Positions 3 through 25,127 of a stretch of DNA of 25,347 bases are shown piece by piece. The position numbers and the translations under genes are program-made. The DNA is from a virus, in IMG/VR virus record IMGVR_UViG_3300032294_000464, positions 1-25,347 of that record. One strand, 5' to 3'. Numbering within the stretch: position 1 is the first letter of the stretch; the number at the start of each line of letters is the position of its first letter. Below the pieces are notes generated by a model. The model did not search any database and was not told where the DNA came from. It saw only the letters and a program-made list of their open reading frames with translations.

Positions 3-2447
3 TATATAAGTATTGACTATGGTACTAATAGAGGTATTTCAGGTGTTGACTATCAAACAATAGGTAGCCCATCTAGGTATGTACTTGAGTATAATAATGA
101 GACAATACTTGACACAGGATATGTAGGATTAAATAGTTCTGCAAATGTGTCCGCATTACTTGCAGCTGGAGTAAGCCAAGATGACATTAACTTAGTCTTC
201 CCATACGATGGATTAGTAGATAATGGGACTGGACATTTACTGTTTAAAAAGTTAATTACTGAACCAAACGCTGTACTTACAGTATATGCACCATTGAATG
301 GAGCCTCTTACATATTAAACAAAGTATCTACATACCTAAAGACATTTTATATCGATACAGCTGATGGAGTAGATACAACTGCTGCATGTTCTCAAACAGC
401 ATCTACTCAATATTGGCATAATGGATCTGGAACATATCCTATAACAGGAGATACAATATATACTGACTCAACTGGAACTGACTTATACAATGGTAATAAT
501 TCATATCACCTAGTAAGTGAGACAATGATGATGGCTCCTCCAGTAAGTGGTGGAATATATACATTTGTTAATGGAAACGGACTAGTTACTTTACATGGTT
601 CGTGTGACTGTAACGAAGCAGCTGTACCATTTGTTTATCAGGATGATATATACCTAACTGAAGGAGAGTCCATTAACCTATATCTACAAGCATCTGGAAA
701 TCCTACTAGTTGGCAATTGATTACTTCATGTGAGACATATGAGCTAACAGGAGGCACAAGAGGTACATTATATACCTATTCAGATTGTTATGGCAATTCA
801 CAGAACATAACAGTAGGTATAGATAATGTTCCTGTATATGTTTGCTCAACAAGTGGTGCGCCAACAATTGTGGTAGGAGATGGTACAGCTACTCTTTACG
901 ATAGCTTATGTCCTGAGTTCTTACTGCCTAAAGGATTAACGTTCTCTTCTGATACCGGCAACATTACAGGGACACCTGAAGAATCTTGTACATTTCCTTT
1001 AACATTAAGAGCTGTTAATTGTGTCGGATCGAGCGCATCAAAAGATATAAACATCATTATACAAACAGGCATCAAGTTAACACCTTTTGCTATTGATGTA
1101 GAAAACTTTGGAGATACTGGAGATGCTGCATGTGCCGTGTCACCAATATATAGTTTGTTGTATCACAATGGACAAGGAAGAGTTCCAACTGTAAATGATA
1201 CCATATACACAGACGCTACTGCTCAGGTTAAGTTTATGGGAGGAGGTCAGTGGTATCACATCGACCATTCGACATACTCTATTAAGATATGTGAGACAGG
1301 AAATGTATGTGAAAAGAATGAATGTCCTACAGTCACAACAACAACTACGTCAACAACAACTACCACAACTACAACTACTCTTCCAACAGGAGATTGGTTT
1401 GACGCAACGTTGTGTACTGACCCAACTGTTACAGCTGTGTTGTTTGACTCAACTACATTTGGTATAGTTGTAGGTGACTATGTTAAAACAAATGAGGGGA
1501 ACTGTTGGCAAATAACAGCTGTTACAACAGCATCGTTCCCATACCAAACAATAGAGAATCCTGTAAACTTATACACTGACTGTAGCGATTGTCTTGGTAT
1601 AACTACTACAACAACTACGACAACCACTACTACAGCACCTACATTTGCAGCGTTTAACATGGATCCTACCCAGTATCTATCTGCATATGACGCATGTGTA
1701 AATACAGGAGGTCCATATACATTGTTCTACCACAATGGGGTATCTGCACTACCTGTTATAGGCAACTTCGTATACTCTGACTCATTAGGAACAACTCCTG
1801 TAGTGGGGGATGGATACTGGTACAATGTGCCTACAATGGGTGGAGATTGGTCTATTCAAATATCATCTACAGGACAGGTGTTAGACTCTGTTGTTTGTTC
1901 AACTACAACCACAACTACCACAACGACAATACCTACAAATTACTATTTAGCAAGGATATGTGGTTCTGCTGGACCAAACGTAACAATAGGCCATCAGTCT
2001 TTATCAATATTGAGTAATGCTACAGTAGTTAAGTGTGACGATGGTAATTGTTATACGATACAGAATACAGGTACATTCTCTCCTTCTGTACCAATGGTGT
2101 TGTTTACATATCCTAACTGCTTCGCATGTACAGGCATCACAACAACAACTACAACGACATCTACGACAACAACTACAACGACATCAAGTACAACTACAAC
2201 TACGACTACAACACTTCCTCCATTGACAAACATATTCATGAGGTTTGGAACTAACCTTACAGTATGCAACGGAAACATTGGTCAGTACTATGTAGATGCT
2301 CCTGTAGGTATAAGTGGAAATAACCTATATAGATTGTTTCTAGGAAATTATATTCCTGCAAATGCCGGATATTACAGACAAATTAATAGCTTTGTTGCTT
2401 ATGAGTGGGACGGATCTGACTGGACCGGTAATTCAATAACATGCTAA
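3..2447 (+). CDS. Tail fibre / adhesin-like virion protein, 5'-truncated, with Thr-rich linkers
   Basis: The reading frame is open from the first bases of the window, so the true start lies upstream; the GTG at 147 is internal. The early part (to about 345) has the look of a domain repeated in Bacteroidetes phage tail proteins (a SRYVLEYN...DTGYVG... stretch followed by APLNGASY). Bases 840-1070 resemble a He_PIG Ig-like domain (PKGLTFSSDTGNITGTP). Two domain types then recur. Type A (bases 345-516, 1080-1262, 1644-1830) shares YHNG....P..GD..YTD..G and a WYH/WYN end. Type B (1395-1602, 1941-2138) has scattered Cys and ends CxxCxGI. They are joined by four Thr tracts. The final ~75 residues form another small domain. 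The likely role is extracellular receptor binding. The neighbouring glycosyltransferase overlaps its stop by 7 bases. No catalytic motif is seen. Tail fibre is inferred from architecture and position. Confidence 0.8.
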   Translation, partial: YISIDYGTNRGISGVDYQTIGSPSRYVLEYNNETILDTGYVGLNSSANVSALLAAGVSQDDINLVFPYDGLVDNGTGHLLFKKLITEPNAVLTVYAPLNGASYILNKVSTYLKTFYIDTADGVDTTAACSQTASTQYWHNGSGTYPITGDTIYTDSTGTDLYNGNNSYHLVSETMMMAPPVSGGIYTFVNGNGLVTLHGSCDCNEAAVPFVYQDDIYLTEGESINLYLQASGNPTSWQLITSCETYELTGGTRGTLYTYSDCYGNSQNITVGIDNVPVYVCSTSGAPTIVVGDGTATLYDSLCPEFLLPKGLTFSSDTGNITGTPEESCTFPLTLRAVNCVGSSASKDINIIIQTGIKLTPFAIDVENFGDTGDAACAVSPIYSLLYHNGQGRVPTVNDTIYTDATAQVKFMGGGQWYHIDHSTYSIKICETGNVCEKNECPTVTTTTTSTTTTTTTTTLPTGDWFDATLCTDPTVTAVLFDSTTFGIVVGDYVKTNEGNCWQITAVTTASFPYQTIENPVNLYTDCSDCLGITTTTTTTTTTTAPTFAAFNMDPTQYLSAYDACVNTGGPYTLFYHNGVSALPVIGNFVYSDSLGTTPVVGDGYWYNVPTMGGDWSIQISSTGQVLDSVVCSTTTTTTTTTIPTNYYLARICGSAGPNVTIGHQSLSILSNATVVKCDDGNCYTIQNTGTFSPSVPMVLFTYPNCFACTGITTTTTTTSTTTTTTTSSTTTTTTTTLPPLTNIFMRFGTNLTVCNGNIGQYYVDAPVGISGNNLYRLFLGNYIPANAGYYRQINSFVAYEWDGSDWTGNSITC
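1335..1379 (+). repeat. Thr-rich low-complexity tract 1 (ACN codons)
   Basis: Fifteen codons in a row, 14 Thr and one Ser, mixing ACA, ACT, ACG and ACC. It links a type A domain to a type B domain in the adhesin. In the protein it would be an extended, mucin-like linker that could be O-glycosylated. Confidence 0.85.
1602..1634 (+). repeat. Thr-rich low-complexity tract 2
   Basis: Eleven consecutive Thr codons follow the CLGI end of a type B domain and precede a type A domain. Synonymous codons are mixed, so this is not a pure triplet microsatellite. Confidence 0.85.
1902..1928 (+). repeat. Thr-rich low-complexity tract 3
   Basis: Nine consecutive Thr codons follow VVCS at the end of the third type A domain and precede IPT and the second type B domain. 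Confidence 0.85.
2139..2213 (+). repeat. Thr/Ser-rich low-complexity tract 4 (longest)
   Basis: Twenty-five codons, 22 Thr and 3 Ser, immediately after the CTGI end of the second type B domain and before the C-terminal domain. At the DNA level it is an (ACN)n array whose sub-blocks, such as ACTACAACGACA, occur twice, so it could change length by slippage or recombination. Confidence 0.85.
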
Positions 2448-3355
2448 AATTAATTTCAGCTCAACCTGCAATAGACTATTACGCTTGGCAGGTTGAGGTC
2501 TACCTTCACAACTTCATATCATTAGGATATAAGGAAGAAGATATTCACGTAGTTGCAGGATACCTAGAAGAGATTCCTGATTCGTGGTACAAGCTAAAGG
2601 AAAACTTCCCGAATGTAGGTATATACATATACCAAGACACAATGGGCGAGTGCGACTATCCTCCTGCAATACAGGCACATATACTAGAGAAGCACTTCAA
2701 GCAACACACGTACCTTAAAAACTGCTCTGTATTCTTCCACGACTGTGACTTTTTATTTACTAGGTACTTCGACTTTACTCCATTCCTAAATGACGATAAG
2801 TGGTACTTCAGTGATACTATCAGCTACATTGGAGCCAACTACATTAAGAGTAAAGATGAGTCTATACTTGATGGCATGTGTCAAATAATAGGCATAGAGC
2901 GTTCAGTAGTTGAGGCCAACCAAGAAAACTCTGGTGGCGCACAGAAGCTGATGAAGAACATTGATGCATCTTATTGGGCAGAGGTCTATAAAGGATGCAG
3001 AGAGATATATACATACCTAAGAAGTGTGAGCCATTTAAAGAAGGAAGGTGATCCGTATGGCATCCAATGTTGGACTGCAAGCATGTGGGCAGAACTATGG
3101 GTAGCCTGGAGGAGAGGACACGAGGTTGTTGTGCCAAGAGAGTTTGACTTCTGTTGGGCTACATGTCCATCTGAGAGATGGGACTATGTACACTTCTTTC
3201 ACAATGCAGGAGTACCTAACTCAAGTCAAGGGATGTTCTTCAAAGCTGCATACATAGATAAGTTTCCATTCAATGAAACATTGGACATAGATAAAAGCAG
3301 ATGTTCATATATGTACTACCAAGCAATGAAGTCTATCAATAGTTGTTTGGTATAA
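2441..3355 (+). CDS. Putative GT-A-like glycosyltransferase
   Basis: 304 residues. The ATG at 2441 overlaps the adhesin stop (ATGCTAA), so the two genes are probably co-translated. The motif FFHDCDFLFT puts D101-C-D103 at the end of a hydrophobic strand, which matches the DxD metal/nucleotide-sugar site of GT-A enzymes. A later GGAQ stretch and a C-terminal FDFCWATCP...FFHNAGV segment fit the acceptor side and the C-terminal His that often closes the metal site. There is no signal peptide or membrane segment, so it would act in the host cytoplasm during assembly. The substrate is unknown; the Thr tracts of the adjacent adhesin are attractive acceptors (inference). An alternative is modification of another virion component or of host surface glycan. 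The enzyme class is fairly likely, the acceptor is not established. Confidence 0.6.
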   Translation: MLKLISAQPAIDYYAWQVEVYLHNFISLGYKEEDIHVVAGYLEEIPDSWYKLKENFPNVGIYIYQDTMGECDYPPAIQAHILEKHFKQHTYLKNCSVFFHDCDFLFTRYFDFTPFLNDDKWYFSDTISYIGANYIKSKDESILDGMCQIIGIERSVVEANQENSGGAQKLMKNIDASYWAEVYKGCREIYTYLRSVSHLKKEGDPYGIQCWTASMWAELWVAWRRGHEVVVPREFDFCWATCPSERWDYVHFFHNAGVPNSSQGMFFKAAYIDKFPFNETLDIDKSRCSYMYYQAMKSINSCLV

Positions 3356-3373: not shown

Positions 3374-4105
3374 ATGCCAATTCCTAATACATTAACGTAT
3401 TCTCCATCTTCTAACGGCTGGACTTCGTTCTGGAGTTACAACCCAGATTGGATGTTAGGATTAAATAGTTCATTTTATACATGGAAGTTAGGTCAGCTAT
3501 ACAAGCATGATAGCAATAGTACACGTAATAATTTTTATGGCAGCAACTACGAATCTAAAATAACAACTGTCTTCAATGTAGAGCCTACTCAGAATAAGGT
3601 ATTTAAGACATTGGATTTAGAAAGTACACATCCTTGGAGTGCTACATTTACTACCGACTTAAGTAATGGGTATAATGATGCTAGTTACTTCGTTGAGAAA
3701 GAAGGTTCATGGATGACATATATTCGTAGCGTTGCAGGTACTAATGACAACCATGAATTATATACTCAGGGGTTGGGGCAGGTACTTGGATTGGTTCCTC
3801 CGAACACTATTGAGCTAGCAAATGTTGATAGTAACATTAGTGCAGGAGACTTGTTGTACGTGTACAATACAAACATAAACACACTAACATTAATTGGAAC
3901 GGTAACTAGTAATACAGATACGTCTGTAACTTTTACACTTGTTTCCTCGCCATCAGTTGGTGACTATATCGTATATATTAAAAATAACTTAGCTGAGTCT
4001 TTTGGGCTTAGAGGATACTATATGCAGGTAGAACTCTCTATCCTTGAGTCATCTCCAGTTGAGTTGTTTGAAGCAGCGTCATCAGTATTTAAAAGTTCTC
4101 CTTAA
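3374..4105 (+). CDS. Conserved tail/neck structural protein (Bacteroidetes podophage type)
   Basis: 243 residues. The N-terminal half has the pattern WTSFWSYNPDWMLGLNSSFYTWKLGQLYKH, then NNFYGSNYES, FKTLDLES and a KEGSWMTYIRS motif. The last ~100 residues are beta-rich (a GD-containing repeat) and end in GLRGYYMQVEL...VFKSSP. I recognise this combination from tail/neck (muzzle- or stabilisation-like) proteins of Bacteroidetes podophages, including crAss-like phages; this is from memory and not a database search. It would be part of the particle, probably at the portal/tail junction. It begins 18 bases after the glycosyltransferase stop, right behind a TAnnTTTG promoter. In some related phages this sequence is the C-terminal part of a larger protein; here it is a separate, shorter gene. 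Confidence 0.7.
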   Translation: MPIPNTLTYSPSSNGWTSFWSYNPDWMLGLNSSFYTWKLGQLYKHDSNSTRNNFYGSNYESKITTVFNVEPTQNKVFKTLDLESTHPWSATFTTDLSNGYNDASYFVEKEGSWMTYIRSVAGTNDNHELYTQGLGQVLGLVPPNTIELANVDSNISAGDLLYVYNTNINTLTLIGTVTSNTDTSVTFTLVSSPSVGDYIVYIKNNLAESFGLRGYYMQVELSILESSPVELFEAASSVFKSSP

Positions 4106-6269: not shown

Positions 6270-9200
6270 ATGCCTGGATATAGCGATCAAATATACAACT
6301 ACATTCTTAAATTGGATCCAACATATAAGAATGACGTTTCATTACAAGCGTTTAAATCAAAAATGGCTAACCCAACATATTCACGACAGATATATGATTG
6401 GATAGGGTCTGCTGATGCTACTTTTAAAAGTGATGTTTCATTTGATGCGTTTAGTTCACAAATGGGATATCCAAAAAAAAAAGTCACTACGGCATCTCCT
6501 GGAAGTGGGGCAGCAAAACCTTCTTCTTCGGGGCCGTTGTCGAAGGCAGTTAATGCTGGAGTACAAAAGGTTGTTGCGGCAGCTATCAAACCTGAGGGAT
6601 CTTATAAGTATCCAGGAAGGGAAGATGCGCTATATAAGAAGACAAACAATCAGTGGTATATTGACCTAGGTAAGACAGGTAAGTATGTCAAAATAAATGA
6701 GAAGAATAGGATTGATGCATTAGAGAAATATGCTAAGACATATACTCCTGACATTGTTAAATCCGCTACTCAAGTTGTTAAGGATATAGGGAAGGGTGCT
6801 ACAGAACTTATTTCAAAGACAACACCTCCAACTGCTGCTGAATTACAGAAGGATGTAAAGAAAGAGATTGATTATTTAGAGTCTCAGAAACAATTAAGCA
6901 ACAAAGAAATAGCAGATATATTTGGATGGAACGAATCAGATGTAGAACGAGTTGCAAGTTCATCCAGTAAAAGTACAACGCCTATTACAAAGGCTATGGC
7001 TGCTAATGCTATACCTGTTGTAAAAACAAATACAAGCCAGCCATCAATAGAACAGTTTTCTCAGAATGTTCAAAAGGTAATGAACGATTTAGGTGAAAAT
7101 GCATCTGAAGAGAAAAAACAAGAAAGACTAGAATACTATAACACTAAAGACCTTCAAACATATTTAAAAGGTGAGGGTTACGATGTAGATGTTAATGGTG
7201 ATAAGGAGGATGACAAAACGCAGAAAGCGTTAAAGCATTCTAACATGAAAGAACAAATGTTCATTGAGGACATGTATGAATCAATGGACCAATATGATAG
7301 AGTTTACGGACTAGTAAACGAAAACATGTTGGAGATGAGCGAGGAGGAAGCCGTTCCATTATTGAGGAAGTACTTTGGTAAAGACGGATTTACATTCAAT
7401 GAAACAGGTATTGGAAACTATGTAGAGGTAGTATCTCCAGGAAAAAAGAAACAGGTTTTTGAATTCAATACATCTGATCCTGAGAGCATAAGTAAACTTA
7501 GAGAATTTTTAGGAAATACTTATCTCGCTAAAAATGAGAAGAAAAAATATAATGACTTATTGAATGGAGATGATGTAGATATGAATGACCCTAGAGCTAG
7601 GGATAAATACTTCTATGACCTTACTACATTAATAGGACAGAATCCAGATAAATATGCGGATGTATTGGGTGATCCTGATGATATATTATCTGGAACTCAT
7701 CCAATTAAAAGTGCAATAGATAGAACAGCTTATAATATAAAAGCAGAATCTATTCAGTTGAATAAAGATTACGCAGCATTAAAAACAAGGATTGATAAAT
7801 ACAATGCTAACCCTGAAAAATATGGAAATCAGGAAAGAGCAGCCATTAATAATATTCTACATGACTTAAAGGTAAGAGAATACAATATCCTTAAAGACCA
7901 GAAGAAGATAACATCAATGGATAATTCTTTGAGAAGAATTACCGGAAAAAAAATTATAGAATCAAGAAAAAGTGGAGACTGGGCAGGTGTATTGACATCT
8001 CAGTTCTTTAAAGGAATTACAGCTATTCCATTGCTTTCAACTCAATTAGCAATGGATGCTCTTCCATATGCTGTTGGTGCTGAAAACTTTTTTGATCCAA
8101 TAACATATGATAGGTTAAAGACAATAGATGGATATAATGATTTAGAGATACAAGACTTAGGTGTCAAGAAATTAAAGCAAACCATTTATGGAGATATAGA
8201 AAGAGGTATATCAAATGTAGCTTCTTTTGGAACTACTACTCCTGAATATGTAAGTGACCCTGAACGCAATGACATTTTAAAAGGAGTGTCATTTATGGCT
8301 GAATCTGTTGGTACAGCAATGGCCGGTGGAGGAAGTGGAACGCTACAGAAGCTTGGATTCTTTGCCATGTCGTATAATGGTATGGAAAAAGAAATGATGG
8401 ACCCTCGTTTTGACGATATGTCAGAAACAGAGAAGAAGTTATATTCTGTACCATATGGTTTTGTTATTGGGGCATTAGAACGTTTTGGATATAATGCTCT
8501 TTCAGGAGGAGATAAATCTATAGTTAATAGATTAGCTTCAGGAGTTATAGGAAGAACATTGGCAGGCCTACCTAAAGACGCTACTATATCAACAATCAAA
8601 AGAGAAATCAATAAGAACGTTGGTAGAATGGTTGCTGACGGTGTTATCAACGTAGCAGGTGGAGCAGTAGCAGAAGGATCTACAGAGGCATTACAAAGAG
8701 TATTCGAAGTAGGAGAAAAGTATGCTATAAATCAGATTAAAGATAAAGAATACTTTCAAGGTATACCTGACATCACTACTTGGGAAGGTATTAAGAAAAC
8801 ATATGATTTAGCTAAGGAGGATTTCTATTACGCTGCAATTGGATCATTGGTGTTCTCAAGTGGTGTTAATTCAGTTCAGACTATGCAACAGTATAGGTTT
8901 AATAAAAAGACTGATGCTGAGTTTGATGTGCTATACAATAGTGTGTCCAATCCATTCTTGAGGAACATGACTGAGTTGGATATCAAGAGCAGGTTGGCTA
9001 AAGGAGAGATGACAAAAGAAGAGGCAGCAAGTCAAATCCAAGCGTTGAAGGATGTTGCCGGAAGACTTTCAAGAGTAAATCCTAATTTATCTTTGCGAGA
9101 CAAGAAAGATTCATTTAACTTAATACTCGAAAAAGAAAAGTTAGAAAAAGAAAAAGCTCCATTGGATGAGGCTTTACAAGCACCATACAATGAGAGAATA

Positions 9201-12200
9201 GCTGAAATAAATAACGAACTTAAAACAATAGCACAAAATGCCTTTCAAGAGCAAACAACAAGTGAAGTACCTGTTCAGCCAGAAGCCGCAGTTAGCGGAG
9301 AAATGGCGCAAGGAGTACCCCAAGCAGAACCTCAAGTCACTACCCAAGAAGGTGGGCAAGCAGTCCAAGAAGAAGTAAGGCCTATAGAAGAGGCGACTGC
9401 AAAAGCTCAAGAAGAAGTAGAGTCATATATTGTAGACAGGTTTAGGAATCTAAAACTAGAACCTGTAATAGATCCTCTTCTTAATAAAATGAATAATGCT
9501 GAGTATATTGATGATGCGGATATAGATAACGCATTAGAGATTATATTCAAAGAACTTGATGATATAGATAACTCAGAGTATTCAGACAATGTAAAAACTA
9601 ATGTTAAAGACAGCCTATTGAACTTGGCTGAAAAATTAGATAACTATGAATTTAGAACAAAGGATAAGACTGTCACAGTTGCCCAAAAGAGAGCAGCTGA
9701 TAGCACTAGAGAAAATGTACAAAAAGTTAAAGTCGAAGAGTTCTTCTCAGGAGCAAAAGCCATCCACAATGGAGAAGAAGTAGAATTTGATACTACTAAG
9801 GGTGTAGTAGAAGCCAAGCTTCCAAATGGAAATACCATTGTATTTGATACTCCATCGATGGAAGTAAAAGAAGATGGTATAGTTATAGGAGATGATGGAA
9901 ATCTATCTACTGTAACTATGGTTGATAGGTTTGGTAGTGAGTTCACATTTGATGGTGATATAGCATTAGATTTAGCAATAAAAGATAGACAGAATAAAAT
10001 AGGTGAAATACCACCTCCTGTCTTTGATATTGTAATGGAAGAGATGACTGTTAAGGAGCCTTATATTAAAGAGCGAACAGTACAACCTCAACCAACAGTT
10101 GAACCAACAGTAGAAACAGAAGTTACTCCTGTAGCTGAAGCACAGCCAACTATTGAGGCGCAACCTACAGAAGCACAACCAGTAGAAACACAACCGGTAG
10201 CTACTGAGGAAGAAGTTGATCAAGAGTTAGAAGCATTAAGAACGTTACTTCAAGGTACAGACGAACAGATTGATGAACAGGTATCCGGATTGGATATATC
10301 AAACCGTAACGATAAGGTTGCTGAGAATATAGCAAATGCAGCTAAAACGATATCTAGAATACTTCCTAATGTAGAGTTTATTGTTCACGATACTGAAGAG
10401 TCTTATAGACAAGCAACAGGAAATAATGCAAGAGGTACATATATACCCGAAGAGGGAGATACTAAACCTCAGATACACATTAACTCTAAAAAAGCAAACA
10501 ACAGAACAGCTGCACATGAAGTATTCCATGCTGTACTGTTGAACGCTGTAAAAAGTAATGAAGAGGCTCAGAGGTTAACAAAGAGCATGATCAATGCTGT
10601 CATGAAGTCTATGTCCAATATTGAAGGACAACAAGGATTAAAGAAATATCTTTATGACTTCGCAGATAACTATGAGTATAACGTAAGGGATGAAGAAAAG
10701 CTTGCAGAACTTTTGGGTGTACTTGCTACTAACTATAAAAACTTAGAAGCACCATCTAAAAATATCATCAAAAGATTCTTCGAAAGAATAGCTAAGTTGA
10801 TAGGTTTAAAACCTATGACAGATAGAGAAGTTGTAGACTTCATGAACACAATGGCAGATGCCTTGTATAAAGGTGAGGTTTTAACTAAGAGAGATATTGC
10901 TATGCTTCCTAAGCCTAGGAAGAAAAGTATATCAAACATTATTAAACGTTTCCAATCTGACTTCTCAGATGCATTCTCTAAGTTATCATTTGTATATGAC
11001 AAGAATGGAGAGGAGTTCAACAAGTTAGAAAAACAAGGATATATAACCAAAGACAAATCGTTATCTGACTTCAATGGTAAGTATATGTTCTTGCATCAGC
11101 CTGATGCAGCATTCTCCGGAATGATTTATAAAGATGGAGAGATTCTAGTTGAGGGTAAGGGAGGTGTGTTCTATCCTATAAAATTCCACAAGGATGGATA
11201 CTTCTGGGCAAGTACAGATAAGACAGCTAGTAAAATGGCTGAAGACTTAAACAAAGTATTTGAACAAAATGGTGGTGTTATTTATATGGCACTTACTTCT
11301 GCTCCTTATGACAAATTGTTATCAAGTACTACAATGTCCAATGCTGTTCTTGATTTCTTTTCATCTAAGGCATTTGATAAAAACTTCAAAATAACTGAGA
11401 ATCAATTTAAGGTAGCACTTAGAAATGCAGCTAATAACTTTGTCATTAAAACAGTGAAGAATGATGACGGAAAAGTTGTTTCTAAAAAGGTTGGTCTACA
11501 GCTAAACTTACCTGGTAATACTACGATTGCAGAGATGAAATCTGCAATAAAAGAAAAATTAAATCCAGACAATAGTTCTTTTGCTGACAGAAAAGAATTT
11601 GTTTTAGAGCTAATAAAATTAATGGCAGCTCAGATAAACAAAAATGATGTATCAATAGAACAATTTGGAAAGTTATTTTCTCAAGGTATTCAGAATAAAT
11701 ACTTTAAAGGAATTACTAAGACAGGTAAAGTATCTATATCTGCTGCAAATATGAGGCAAGCACTTTCTGAAATGCTTACTGAGCCTATATTAAAAGAAGA
11801 TATAGAAAGAAGTAAAGGAGGGCAAGTTTATGCTGTACTAGAATTAACCGGAAAGGTTAAAGGTGTTGACTCAGACAAACATGAGTCTTATCCAAAAGCA
11901 ATTCAATCTGAGGATGCTAATAACAAAGTAACTCTTCATATACTTAAAGACAGATTAAAATGGTCAGATGTATTTGAAGACTTTGAAACAAATAAAATTG
12001 TAGCTAAGGATAGATATCTAAAAGTTTATCCAACTAGTGGTGTATCTGTTAGAGGGTTAAAACTAAATACCGGTAAGATTACACCTCGACAACAACAGCC
12101 AGGTCAAAACATTAATCAAATTGTAACAACGGCAAGGAACAATAATTTCTCTGATGCAACTATTGAAAAGTTATTAAAGCAACAAGGATATACTGATGCA

Positions 12201-15140
12201 GAAATACAATCAGCTCTTACTGCTCCTAGAACTACCTTAGGAATAGATGAGATATTCAATAGAAGTAATCAAGCTCTTCAAAGACAATACGATACTCCTG
12301 CATATAAGCGTGCGTTAAGGTATGCCAATAAGATGATATTTGAACGCCAGGAAGCAATCAAAAGATTGATGAGAGGAATTAAGAATAAAGATGCATCTAG
12401 GGCGTACAACATGTTAATCAATAAAGCTGGTGCTACAGGTTTTGCAAGTACTAGATTTAAAGAAGCAGATAGAAAAATATATGGTCGATTAGGTGGTAAA
12501 ACTCCTATACAAAGAAAAGAGAATAGGGATGATTTAGATAAGATGATATACCTAAGAAGGTTTATTGCCATCAACGAAAACCTAAGAAAGAAAGGCGAAG
12601 AACCTTATATTGGTATGGGTGGATTTAATGAAGAAAAAGCAAGAGAAGGATTACAAAAAATAAAAGAAAGAATAGGAGAGAAAAAGTTTGAAAAATTCAG
12701 CAAAAGAGCCGACATATACTTTAATGAGTATAAGGAAAATTTAAAGATGTTGTATGAGTCTGGAAGAATTAATAAAGAAACATACGAAAACTTTAAAGAT
12801 ATAGAGTACTCTCCTATTAAAGTTATTAAGTATATCATTGATGATAATGCAGACCCTAGTGAAGTTGATACTCAAGCTGCTAAGTTAGGTATAAACAGAA
12901 AAGATATAATGAAACTTGGTAAACTAAATGAGAATGCTATAGTGTTCGATTCTAGGTGGTTACTAATGTTAAATATTCATACAGTAGCAGCAAGAGCATT
13001 TGAAAACGATATGCTAAGTTCTTTTGCAAAGGCAATAGATGAAGGTACAGAGGAAGAGCGTGAAGCTGTAGATCCATATATTAAAGCAAATCCTACCATA
13101 GGATCTAAGCAAGATGGAACACCAAAACAGAAGTATAACATGATGAATACTCCTGTAGGGTATACTGCTGTTAGTTATTTTGATAATGGAATACAAAAAA
13201 CATTAGTAGTTAAGGATGAGTATGCACAACAGCTTTTAGATATTAAAAATCTAGACTCATCACTTAGGTTTTTGTCTGCAATGACTCTAGGTAATGTACT
13301 TAGGTATTTTGCAACTGTAGGTAACCCGCTATTTATTATTGGTAACGTACCTGTAGATATTGTGAACGCTGCATTCTTTACAGATGTATATAGTCCTTTT
13401 AAACCTCTTGCTGTGCTTCAGGCAAGTACTGGTTTCTCATATAGATTTTTACAAGGAATAGCATATGATGTAGCTCCACTATATGAAGGAATAAGAAGAA
13501 TATTTAATAAAGATTACGATAAAGAAAGAAGAAACAAATTTTTATATGAGTTTGTAAGTCATGGTGGAACTGTAGATACTCTACATAGACAAGGGCTTAG
13601 GCCTCTAGAAAGAAACATGTTTCTTACTGGAACTAAAAAAGCAATAAATGATACCTTATTAAATACAGGTAGAGCCACTTCTTATTTGGGTTCTAAATCA
13701 GAAATTGCAATGAGGCTTGCTGTATATGCTAAACGTAAAAGAAATCTTATTGCTGAGTTTAAGAAAGAAAATAATGGAGAATCACCACAGGGACAAGAAC
13801 TTGATGATATCATGTGGGAAGCTGCAAGAGAGGGTCGAGAACTTATAGACTTTAGTCAAGGAGGTGAATTCATTAAAAAAGCAGATCAAGTTATTCCATA
13901 TCTAAATGCAGCTGTACAGGGATTAAGAAAGCAAGGTAGATTTGCTGTAGAAAATAAAATTCTTTTCGCATCCAATGTGCTACAAGGAATGGGAATGTTT
14001 GCAGGAATAGCAGCATACTCTTTAGCAAATGCTTATGCAGCAGCAAGTGATGAGGAAGAAGACAAAGACAAACAAAACCAAATGGTAATAGATACTCTTG
14101 ATTCAATATCTGAACATGAGAAATCACAGTACCATATTATATTTACCGGTAAAAAGAAAAAAGAAAACGGAAAAACTATACTTCAATATGTAAGGATTAA
14201 GAAACTTCCTTTCTTCTCAATTGCTACTACATATGCAGAACAATTTGCAATGAGGTACTGGATAAATAAAAACGGTGGTAAATATGACATTGATAACAAA
14301 CTTATTAAGTTAGTTATGGAAAAATCAATGCCACTACTTCCATCAGAGGTTGCATCAAGAAATCCAATGGTTGCAGCGTTAGTAGCATACAACTTTAACT
14401 ATGATTTCTTTACTAAAAAAGAAGTATTTAGAAATAAAGAAAAACTAAATATTAATCCAATATATGAAGGCATAGAAGACGATAAAGTAGAGGACTTCTT
14501 TAAAGTAATTGCTCCAGCATTAGGTATGTCACCTAAAAGAACGAAAGCAGCTGTTGAGAAGATTATTACATCTCCATCCACAAATCCATTGGTTCACGTA
14601 TTATATGGAGCAATGAATGGTATATTCTCTGATAAAACCGAACTTTCGGAGGATGTTAAGGTTGCAGGTGACATGATACTTGAGTCAGCAGAAAAGAAAA
14701 TGGTTCGTTATACTGATCCTGAAATACTTAGATACGTTCGTGAAGATAGAGATAAAGAAGAACAGATGAGAATACGTTCTGAAATATATCAAAGAGAACA
14801 GAAGGTAAATAAAATAATAAAAGATAAACTAGAGAAGAACGAAAAGTATACAAGTCAAGAATTAATGAAAATTGTTGAGGAGAACTTCCCTAAATATGAT
14901 AGAGAAAAATACTTTAAAAAGTATAAGACTAGAATGATGTTCCCTGATCTTGATAAACAAGTATTGGATATTGTTTATGAAGAAACTCCAGAAATACAGG
15001 CTCAAAAGCTATGGAGTAAGTATGGAAACTCTCTAGAGGAGGATGAAAAATCTGAATTGATTAAAGTAATGAGATCAATCAATAAAAAGATATCTCCAAA
15101 AGTATTTAGAATTTACAATGAAAAATACAAGAACAGATAA
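6270..15140 (+). CDS. Giant polyvalent internal virion protein (zincin motif, PG-binding-like, LPD-type domains)
   Basis: 2956 residues, a third of the window. In order: two ~34-aa tandem repeats (about 4-69; YS.QIY..I...D.T.K.DVS..AF.S.M); a small Y/W-rich module (112-158); a peptidoglycan-binding-like segment (295-325, LQTYLKGEGYDVDVNGD...TQKAL); hydrophobic Gly/Ala-rich stretches (about 571-603, 669-700, 785-870); a charged helical region (about 930-995); a Pro/Glu/Gln linker (about 998-1050); a beta domain (about 1150-1240); a second P/E/T/Q linker (1270-1324). Next is a metallopeptidase motif H1416-E-V-F-H1420, with E1480 a candidate third ligand. An LPD-like beta domain (about 1580-1700) and a helical LPD38-like region (NPLFIIGN at 2352, DFSQGGEF at 2527, hydrophobic 2567-2592) follow, then a charged tail. 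It is probably injected with the DNA and crosses the envelope. No DxDGD polymerase motif was seen. The ejection role is inferred. Confidence 0.75.
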   Translation: MPGYSDQIYNYILKLDPTYKNDVSLQAFKSKMANPTYSRQIYDWIGSADATFKSDVSFDAFSSQMGYPKKKVTTASPGSGAAKPSSSGPLSKAVNAGVQKVVAAAIKPEGSYKYPGREDALYKKTNNQWYIDLGKTGKYVKINEKNRIDALEKYAKTYTPDIVKSATQVVKDIGKGATELISKTTPPTAAELQKDVKKEIDYLESQKQLSNKEIADIFGWNESDVERVASSSSKSTTPITKAMAANAIPVVKTNTSQPSIEQFSQNVQKVMNDLGENASEEKKQERLEYYNTKDLQTYLKGEGYDVDVNGDKEDDKTQKALKHSNMKEQMFIEDMYESMDQYDRVYGLVNENMLEMSEEEAVPLLRKYFGKDGFTFNETGIGNYVEVVSPGKKKQVFEFNTSDPESISKLREFLGNTYLAKNEKKKYNDLLNGDDVDMNDPRARDKYFYDLTTLIGQNPDKYADVLGDPDDILSGTHPIKSAIDRTAYNIKAESIQLNKDYAALKTRIDKYNANPEKYGNQERAAINNILHDLKVREYNILKDQKKITSMDNSLRRITGKKIIESRKSGDWAGVLTSQFFKGITAIPLLSTQLAMDALPYAVGAENFFDPITYDRLKTIDGYNDLEIQDLGVKKLKQTIYGDIERGISNVASFGTTTPEYVSDPERNDILKGVSFMAESVGTAMAGGGSGTLQKLGFFAMSYNGMEKEMMDPRFDDMSETEKKLYSVPYGFVIGALERFGYNALSGGDKSIVNRLASGVIGRTLAGLPKDATISTIKREINKNVGRMVADGVINVAGGAVAEGSTEALQRVFEVGEKYAINQIKDKEYFQGIPDITTWEGIKKTYDLAKEDFYYAAIGSLVFSSGVNSVQTMQQYRFNKKTDAEFDVLYNSVSNPFLRNMTELDIKSRLAKGEMTKEEAASQIQALKDVAGRLSRVNPNLSLRDKKDSFNLILEKEKLEKEKAPLDEALQAPYNERIAEINNELKTIAQNAFQEQTTSEVPVQPEAAVSGEMAQGVPQAEPQVTTQEGGQAVQEEVRPIEEATAKAQEEVESYIVDRFRNLKLEPVIDPLLNKMNNAEYIDDADIDNALEIIFKELDDIDNSEYSDNVKTNVKDSLLNLAEKLDNYEFRTKDKTVTVAQKRAADSTRENVQKVKVEEFFSGAKAIHNGEEVEFDTTKGVVEAKLPNGNTIVFDTPSMEVKEDGIVIGDDGNLSTVTMVDRFGSEFTFDGDIALDLAIKDRQNKIGEIPPPVFDIVMEEMTVKEPYIKERTVQPQPTVEPTVETEVTPVAEAQPTIEAQPTEAQPVETQPVATEEEVDQELEALRTLLQGTDEQIDEQVSGLDISNRNDKVAENIANAAKTISRILPNVEFIVHDTEESYRQATGNNARGTYIPEEGDTKPQIHINSKKANNRTAAHEVFHAVLLNAVKSNEEAQRLTKSMINAVMKSMSNIEGQQGLKKYLYDFADNYEYNVRDEEKLAELLGVLATNYKNLEAPSKNIIKRFFERIAKLIGLKPMTDREVVDFMNTMADALYKGEVLTKRDIAMLPKPRKKSISNIIKRFQSDFSDAFSKLSFVYDKNGEEFNKLEKQGYITKDKSLSDFNGKYMFLHQPDAAFSGMIYKDGEILVEGKGGVFYPIKFHKDGYFWASTDKTASKMAEDLNKVFEQNGGVIYMALTSAPYDKLLSSTTMSNAVLDFFSSKAFDKNFKITENQFKVALRNAANNFVIKTVKNDDGKVVSKKVGLQLNLPGNTTIAEMKSAIKEKLNPDNSSFADRKEFVLELIKLMAAQINKNDVSIEQFGKLFSQGIQNKYFKGITKTGKVSISAANMRQALSEMLTEPILKEDIERSKGGQVYAVLELTGKVKGVDSDKHESYPKAIQSEDANNKVTLHILKDRLKWSDVFEDFETNKIVAKDRYLKVYPTSGVSVRGLKLNTGKITPRQQQPGQNINQIVTTARNNNFSDATIEKLLKQQGYTDAEIQSALTAPRTTLGIDEIFNRSNQALQRQYDTPAYKRALRYANKMIFERQEAIKRLMRGIKNKDASRAYNMLINKAGATGFASTRFKEADRKIYGRLGGKTPIQRKENRDDLDKMIYLRRFIAINENLRKKGEEPYIGMGGFNEEKAREGLQKIKERIGEKKFEKFSKRADIYFNEYKENLKMLYESGRINKETYENFKDIEYSPIKVIKYIIDDNADPSEVDTQAAKLGINRKDIMKLGKLNENAIVFDSRWLLMLNIHTVAARAFENDMLSSFAKAIDEGTEEEREAVDPYIKANPTIGSKQDGTPKQKYNMMNTPVGYTAVSYFDNGIQKTLVVKDEYAQQLLDIKNLDSSLRFLSAMTLGNVLRYFATVGNPLFIIGNVPVDIVNAAFFTDVYSPFKPLAVLQASTGFSYRFLQGIAYDVAPLYEGIRRIFNKDYDKERRNKFLYEFVSHGGTVDTLHRQGLRPLERNMFLTGTKKAINDTLLNTGRATSYLGSKSEIAMRLAVYAKRKRNLIAEFKKENNGESPQGQELDDIMWEAAREGRELIDFSQGGEFIKKADQVIPYLNAAVQGLRKQGRFAVENKILFASNVLQGMGMFAGIAAYSLANAYAAASDEEEDKDKQNQMVIDTLDSISEHEKSQYHIIFTGKKKKENGKTILQYVRIKKLPFFSIATTYAEQFAMRYWINKNGGKYDIDNKLIKLVMEKSMPLLPSEVASRNPMVAALVAYNFNYDFFTKKEVFRNKEKLNINPIYEGIEDDKVEDFFKVIAPALGMSPKRTKAAVEKIITSPSTNPLVHVLYGAMNGIFSDKTELSEDVKVAGDMILESAEKKMVRYTDPEILRYVREDRDKEEQMRIRSEIYQREQKVNKIIKDKLEKNEKYTSQELMKIVEENFPKYDREKYFKKYKTRMMFPDLDKQVLDIVYEETPEIQAQKLWSKYGNSLEEDEKSELIKVMRSINKKISPKVFRIYNEKYKNR

Positions 15141-24370: not shown

Positions 24371-24402
24371 GTTACGCATAGCCATGAGTTACCTGCAAGT
24401 GC
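24371..24402 (+). repeat. Left flanking repeat of the methyltransferase cassette
   Basis: On the + strand it reads GTTACGCATAGCCATGA then GTTACCTGCAAGTGC. An inverted, imperfect copy lies at 25219-25246 and a direct, imperfect copy at 25321-25343. It abuts the methyltransferase stop codon. Confidence 0.55.
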
Positions 24403-25127
24403 TACATTTCGTTTCCAAATAGAGTTCCTGCTTGTAAATCTTTTTCTTTTCTTTTTTCTCCCACCTTTTCTAAAATGGTATTTTCTTTTTCTTTATCAAT
24501 TTCTGAAATTATGCAATCAATTCCATTCTGTTTGCACACTTTCATTGTAGTTCCACTTCCTCCAAATGGGTCATAAACTACATTCGGTTTGTTAGGTATT
24601 GCATCAAGTATATTTTGAACAATCCCATCAGGCATTACCGCTATGTGGTTTTGGTCTTTTCTTTGGTGCGTTGGTACTAATCTCCATACATCAGATAAAG
24701 AATTTTTATTCAGCAATTTTACTTTTGGGTTTTTAGTTAGCCAATAAATCCTTTCTGAAAATGGAAAGAAACGTATTTTGTCGCAATTCGCACTTTTACC
24801 CATATCCCAAGTAATTTCTTGCTTAATAACAAAATCAGTTTTCAAAAGCCATTCCATTGGGTGTATTGCTTTACCATCTTTTATTCTTACTTTATGGTTG
24901 TAAAACATACTTCCATTTTCAGAAAGCACTCTATAACATTCATTTAATACTTCAATTTGCCATTTTTGATAATCGTGTTCTTTCATATCATTGTTGGCAT
25001 AACTCCCAAATTGCAATCGGTTACTGTGCATTTTGCCTATGTTGTAAGGCGGTGAAGTAATAATCAAATCAATGTTATTATCTTCAAATCGTTTCAATGT
25101 TTCTTCACAAGGTTCTATATAAATCAT
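24402..25127 (-). CDS. Orphan DNA methyltransferase, beta class (N4-cytosine or N6-adenine)
   Basis: 241 residues, compact. Motif IV T24-S-P-P-Y28 near the N-terminus and motif I D186-P-F-G-G-S-G-T-T in the C-terminal third give the beta-class order, in which the catalytic motif precedes the AdoMet site. A region between them (about 85-160) is the probable target recognition part. Motif IV TSPPYN suits m4C or m6A; the sequence does not decide. No restriction enzyme gene is seen nearby, so it is an orphan enzyme that could protect phage DNA from host restriction or regulate genes. Its coding sequence looks AT-richer than the replication genes beside it, and it is bracketed by short repeats, which suggests acquisition by transfer. 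Confidence 0.9.
   Translation of the reverse strand: MIYIEPCEETLKRFEDNNIDLIITSPPYNIGKMHSNRLQFGSYANNDMKEHDYQKWQIEVLNECYRVLSENGSMFYNHKVRIKDGKAIHPMEWLLKTDFVIKQEITWDMGKSANCDKIRFFPFSERIYWLTKNPKVKLLNKNSLSDVWRLVPTHQRKDQNHIAVMPDGIVQNILDAIPNKPNVVYDPFGGSGTTMKVCKQNGIDCIISEIDKEKENTILEKVGEKRKEKDLQAGTLFGNEM

Follow-up and report, generated by a model that had tools for sequence, protein, structure and literature searches.

A predicted GT-A glycosyltransferase of phages accompanies threonine-rich tracts in neighbouring virion proteins, its putative acceptors

Why should a phage gene for a structural protein interrupted by long runs of threonine be followed, with overlap, by a gene for what looks like a glycosyltransferase, and does the second protein act on the first? 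An initial reading of the locus, made from the sequence alone, proposed that the phage O-glycosylates its own receptor-binding protein in the cytoplasm of the host. The window (by which I mean the whole stretch of DNA that was analyzed) is the virus record IMGVR_UViG_3300032294_000464, positions 1 to 25,347, with a length of 25,347 bases. Because the product of its third gene is a muzzle-type virion protein, I place the virus among the crAss-like phages or their relatives. The closest isolates as judged by the muzzle gene are Cellulophaga phage phi46:3 (Pachyviridae) and Flavobacterium elemo phages. The features of the locus are collected in Table 1. Elsewhere in the window, positions 6270-15140 encode a protein of 2956 aa that finds no match in Pfam and has an HExxH-like motif, HEVFH; it is probably a giant protein associated with the virion in crAss-like phages. 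The minus strand at 24402-25127, within a replication-side operon, encodes a DNA N6/N4 methyltransferase (PF01555, E = 2e-31).

Table 1. Features of the locus, in positions of the window. GT+ and GT- denote phages with and without the enzyme gene.
Feature	Position	Strand	Remarks
Adhesin (modular tail-region protein), C-terminal 814 aa	3..2447	+	phrog_21885; ORF open at window edge
C-terminal extension: four Thr tracts connecting small beta modules	1326..2444	+	Not in nearest GT- orthologues
Thr tract 1 (TTTTTSTTTTTTTTT)	1335..1379	+	Run of at least 8 T/S
Thr tract 2 (11 Thr)	1602..1634	+	Run of at least 8 T/S
Thr tract 3 (STTTTTTTTT)	1899..1928	+	Run of at least 8 T/S
Thr tract 4 (TTTTTTTSTTTTTTTSSTTTTTTTT)	2139..2213	+	Run of at least 8 T/S
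Overlap of 7 bases, GT start/adhesin stop	2441..2447	+	GT ATG 2441-2443, adhesin TAA 2445-2447
Predicted GT-A-fold glycosyltransferase (GT), 304 aa	2441..3355	+	phrog_4417; DxD at residues 101-103; conserved H254-N-A-G
Muzzle-type virion protein	3374..4105	+	crAss_MUZ_C domain, E 5e-18 (Pfam); syntenic anchor for GT+/GT- comparison

I will refer to the tail-region protein as the adhesin, the name given to it in the sequence-only reading, although the name is not confirmable by fold, since a Foldseek search of the C-terminal extension against the PDB gave no fold match. Within the protein Pfam recognizes a putative Ig domain (He_PIG) alone. The reading frame begins before the window, and so the start previously assigned to it, at position 1080, marks only the C-terminal part of a protein that has about 958 aa at full length in close relatives. 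The AlphaFold model of the extension shows modules mostly with pLDDT values of 70-90, and the segments of low confidence (below 50) lie exactly at the tracts, as fits a role for the tracts as spacers.

A tract was defined in the adhesin as at least 8 consecutive T/S residues. The four tracts found in this way total 56 Thr and 5 Ser, the same tracts and the same count of threonines that had been noted from the sequence, where the serines had been put at 4 (the fifth opens tract 3). The longest T/S run, 25 residues, compares with a maximum of 11 and a mean of 4.5 in 2000 residue shuffles of the same protein. All four threonine codons are used in the tracts (ACA 28, ACT 17, ACG 7, ACC 4), and this mixture rules out the simple expansion of a DNA repeat as their origin.

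The gene that follows does overlap the stop codon of the adhesin by 7 bases, as had been claimed, and in relatives the two genes mostly overlap or lie within about 10 bases of each other. Residues 2-300 of its product match the profile phrog_4417 over its full length (positions 1-292 of 293, E = 1.4e-62), a family annotated in PHROGs v4 as of "unknown function" that includes "prophage pi2 protein 34". The enzyme family has at least 588 matches in IMG/VR and homologues in 74 isolate-phage records, mostly from phages of Lactobacillus, Enterococcus, Staphylococcus and Lactococcus, with one Chryseobacterium phage. The sequence-only reading had called the enzyme GT-A-like, DxD-bearing and free of a signal peptide, with structure prediction as the check on its fold, and each of these points was borne out. 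The AlphaFold model, built on an alignment of 32 sequences (pLDDT 95.3, pTM 0.92), found its best fold matches in the PDB among GT-A enzymes: UGGT catalytic domains, LgtC, blood-group transferases and XXYLT1 (E about 1e-6). The TM-scores of 0.36-0.52 (with identities of about 10%) place it in a distinct family within the fold. Both aspartates of D101-C-D103 are invariant in the 32 sequences, which have 35-89% identity to the window enzyme, and H254-N-A-G is invariant in the same alignment. There is no hydrophobic leader; residues 2-9 form the first strand of the predicted fold. Comparisons with known families gave no sequence match for the enzyme profile among PDB sequences, no Pfam family for the window enzyme (a weak Stealth_CR2 match in 2 of the 32 members and nothing consistent), and, with Pfam searches of the window enzyme and the 32 members, no significant relation to CAZy families GT8 or GT24. 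The phrog_4417 enzyme is likely, judging from the predicted structure, a soluble GT-A nucleotide-sugar transferase.

A survey of related phages for the joint occurrence of enzyme and tracts had been proposed in the sequence-only reading, and I approached it from both genes. The enzyme, used as bait, recovered 105 IMG/VR loci, in which Thr-rich runs with a minimum of about 7 residues were sought within 6 kb (7 true loci that the automatic ORF filter had missed, owing to a longer overlapping frame, were covered separately in this survey). A run was present in 91 loci, nearly always in the gene just upstream. Among the 14 loci lacking one, three (L047, L120 and L123) have 7-Thr patterns elsewhere in the record, two have other threonine repeats (TTTVEP in L052 and TPTP in L053), and four (L116, L118, L121 and L133) have the enzyme and no poly-Thr in the sequence covered; the rest are short contigs or records searched in part. 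Enzyme without tracts, the case named beforehand as speaking against the proposal, is thus absent from nearly all close relatives, and in the sequence covered only a few remote viral members, with about 40% identity, lack tracts. Because of these, some members of the family may act on other acceptors. Several remote viral loci (L047, L120, L123, L126 and L130, and also L052) share a conserved neighbour of about 290 aa downstream of the enzyme gene, starting with MIINKATYGGQDC or similar, and the L052 copy matched no Pfam family.

With the muzzle gene as bait, the syntenic locus was compared in 78 loci that had enough upstream sequence, many of them in fragmentary records. Enzyme and tracts were both present in 36 and both absent in 40, with one locus of each mixed type, so that Thr runs occur in 36 of 37 GT+ loci and are missing from 40 of 41 GT- loci (Fisher p = 6e-20, a value that ignores relatedness). 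The expected co-occurrence was therefore found at the muzzle locus. The sole locus with the enzyme and no tract, L225, has TTTVAP repeats (TTTVAPTTT), and the sole locus with a tract and no enzyme, L208, has a short run that is read in another frame and lies about 3 kb away from the muzzle gene. When 30 GT- records were searched as a whole, the enzyme was absent from all 30 and a 6-Thr DNA pattern from 27. On the best muzzle tree the state of the enzyme changes at least 8 times. Independent contrasts, restricted to well-supported branches of that tree, number four (alone too few to reach p < 0.05), and the tracts change in the same direction as the enzyme in about three of them (in all four when L225 is classed as Thr-rich), with no change in the opposite direction.

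Two details, the boundary of the extension and the kind of linker, render the association specific. In the nine nearest GT- phages the orthologous frame is complete (557-619 aa) and stops at or next to adhesin residue 586 (586/587), and orthology spans residues 1-586 of the full-length relative. This point maps to about position 1325 of the window, where tract 1 begins in GT+ phages. Since the GT- frames end where tract 1 begins, the Thr-linked extension and the enzyme gene look like one unit that was inserted or lost; the muzzle tree does not separate gain from loss. A clade of GT- phages (L181, L195, L203 and L226) has modules equivalent to those of the extension, joined by CGSTPPTPPTPPAGG or a near copy (of the TPPTPP type), and its GT+ sister L222 has in their place CTSSTTTTTLPSG and further poly-Thr linkers. 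The long branch of L222 makes its sister position less sure than the support value suggests. From these comparisons of sequence, the enzyme and the Thr tracts would seem to behave as one exchangeable cassette.

It might be argued that the tracts are unmodified, flexible linkers of low complexity and that they accompany the enzyme through phylogenetic inertia or by chance. Poly-Thr linkers can be produced by repeat expansion, and the tracts do fall at low confidence in the AlphaFold model. The muzzle tree, however, shows at least 8 changes of the trait, with the tracts concordant; the Thr codons are mixed; the same modules are connected in GT- relatives by linkers rich in proline; and poly-Thr is nearly absent from the 30 GT- records. 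The pairing is found besides in phages of Firmicutes, considered below, and I regard the explanation as very improbable.

The isolate phages extend the pairing beyond the crAss-like locus. All 12 GT+ isolates examined, from Firmicutes and Bacteroidota, carry tails or linkers rich in threonine, on nearby proteins that are often capsid or major tail proteins. Three of them could be set against GT- relatives (the GT- sides covering stretches of 28-40 kb, sometimes short of the whole genome). Coetzeevirus R3.3 has Thr tails on both the major capsid protein (MCP) and the major tail protein (MTP), whereas in Coetzeevirus phiJL-1 and Bassarid neither the enzyme nor either tail is present. The contrast is repeated between phiFL2B and the GT- Streptococcus prophages Javan513 and GBSInt4, and between Lactococcus phage 1706 and P078 together with actinophages, all GT-. 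Thr-rich tails or linkers also lie near the enzyme gene in bIL285, 4995_1, vB-SscS-F1, Bacchae, 521B, iLp84, VPE25 and MA9V-3. The most remote member among the isolates, orf49 of LP65, adjoins gp50 and gp51, both with TTTETQTQTQ tails. The annotation of gp51, drawn from 2-D gels and mass spectrometry, calls it a structural protein. The TETQTQTQ-type repeats of these two proteins (L229:4064-6107) suggest, by their sequence, acceptor motifs beyond pure poly-Thr.

As phages of Gram-positive bacteria pair the family with tails on capsid and tail-tube proteins, the general substrate would be the Thr-rich parts of virion proteins. The original proposal of a receptor-binding protein as acceptor is therefore supported as to a virion protein with Thr tracts and gains no support as to receptor binding.

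Bacterial homologues of the enzyme occur in Pedobacter, Sphingobacterium, Chitinophaga and Chryseobacterium, near genes for short GG-leader peptides (with matches to the TIGR04149 leader below cut-off), a C39-peptidase ABC exporter and a LanC-like protein. This context independently suggests a peptide-modifying enzyme. In the Bacteroidota loci concerned (L069-L089) most of the enzymes have a C-terminal extension, and the loci may possibly represent an undescribed class of glycosylated RiPP clusters.

These observations bear on a second alternative, that the enzyme modifies some other target (a glycan of the host surface, a cell-wall polymer or phage DNA) and lies near the Thr genes through a shared late operon or unit of transfer. 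There are well-known phage glycosyltransferases that alter the O-antigen of the host or the DNA of the phage, and some remote members of the family have no Thr tracts in the sequence covered. Yet the tracts follow the enzyme through unrelated neighbourhoods (the crAss-like muzzle locus, MCP and MTP of siphophages, and Herelleviridae), the linkers are swapped at specific junctions, the enzyme has no membrane anchor, and its bacterial members adjoin peptide-processing genes. I consider such a target unlikely.

Very probably, then, the GT-A enzyme O-glycosylates the Thr tracts of the neighbouring virion protein in the host cytoplasm. This likely function is stated from the predicted GT-A fold, the gene overlap, the co-occurrence, the linker swap and the tails of capsid and tail proteins; catalysis, acceptor, sugar and physical role are what I infer from them. 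Late in infection, a soluble, DxD-dependent enzyme would act in the cytoplasm, placing sugars on threonines of the tracts (and on some serines) before or during assembly of the virion, and the overlap of the genes would cause enzyme and substrate to be made together. Phages that carry the cassette would lengthen a structural protein with Thr-linked modules, using poly-Thr in place of the TPP-type linkers of GT- relatives, and in phages of Gram-positive bacteria capsid and tail proteins would gain Thr tails. Once glycosylated, the tracts would probably serve as extended, hydrophilic spacers resistant to proteases, and would also display the glycan; stiffness, protease resistance and display are all conjectural. 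The comparative evidence accordingly strongly favours the central claim of the sequence-only reading, that a phage enzyme glycosylates the phage's own Thr-tract virion protein, and gives no support to its restriction to a receptor-binding protein.

A refinement compatible with glycosylation of the tracts is that the enzyme only primes them, and that a host enzyme or a second phage glycosyltransferase builds most of the glycan, as a longer oligosaccharide. L225 (6216-7976) encodes a fusion of the phage enzyme with a further domain that is GT2-like (a weak Pfam match, below cut-off), and this suggests a two-sugar glycan in that phage; a GT2 gene adjoins the enzyme in L118, and the sugar-transferase-like orf42 of LP65 lies about 3 kb from the enzyme gene. 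A second glycosyltransferase next to the enzyme is nonetheless exceptional among the loci inspected by family search, which covered a minority of neighbours, and I hold the refinement to be possible and somewhat doubtful.

For the family at large, it is probable, if a little less so than the function of the window enzyme, that phrog_4417 comprises widespread phage protein O-glycosyltransferases for Thr-rich tracts, forming with the tracts a mobile cassette of phages of Bacteroidota and Firmicutes and related to enzymes of RiPP-like clusters. The open-licence literature yielded no functional paper on the phrog_4417 family, on phage poly-Thr or on "pi2 protein 34", and earlier work is possible. 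If the proposal is true, a protein family of unknown role gains a function, and poly-Thr tails on capsid and tail proteins gain a reason. Phages of Bacteroidota, lactobacilli, lactococci, enterococci and staphylococci would then commonly glycosylate themselves, and a poly-Thr tail or linker beside a phrog_4417 gene would be a simple signature of it in sequence. Lactococcus 1706, Lactobacillus iLp84 and Coetzeevirus R3.3, with natural GT- relatives, would be easy test systems, and an enzyme so small and soluble, acting on Thr tags that can be encoded genetically, would make a useful tool.

How does the proposed system compare with known ones? UGGT, LgtC and the blood-group enzymes GTA and GTB belong to CAZy families GT24, GT8 and GT6, respectively, and GT8 enzymes carry a metal-binding histidine in a motif. 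The window enzyme resembles these and XXYLT1 in fold and DxD, and its invariant H-x-x-G recalls the GT8 histidine, but it differs from them to the extent given by the low TM-scores and identity and by the lack of a PDB sequence match. It is like the RiPP-type clusters of Bacteroidota in that its homologues there sit beside GG-leader peptides, a C39-peptidase exporter and a LanC-like protein, and unlike them in that phage structural genes are absent from those clusters and that the bacterial enzymes are mostly extended at the C-terminus.

Virion glycosylation encoded by phages is documented in the open-licence literature mainly for mycobacteriophages. There, glycosyltransferases (Che8 gp110, Corndog gp38 and the Myrna GT) are reported to decorate the phages' own capsid and tail-tube proteins at their C-termini (Freeman et al. 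2023, via PMC12363180 and PMC12619734). The present case shares with these a phage-encoded glycosyltransferase genetically linked to a candidate acceptor among virion proteins (by overlap in the window and in 36 of 37 GT+ loci) and Ser/Thr-rich tails of MCP and MTP that are present in GT+ members and absent in GT- relatives, as in the R3.3, phiFL2B and 1706 contrasts. Neither hmmsearch nor hhalign found homology between Che8 gp108-gp110 and the phrog_4417 family. In the window, moreover, the modification is one that I infer, the candidate acceptor is a nearly pure Thr tract, and the tracts lie in linkers of a modular tail-region protein rather than in a capsid tail. What would be new with respect to the mycobacteriophages, on the sequences compared, is an enzyme family not detectably related to Che8 gp108-gp110 and at work in phages of other phyla.
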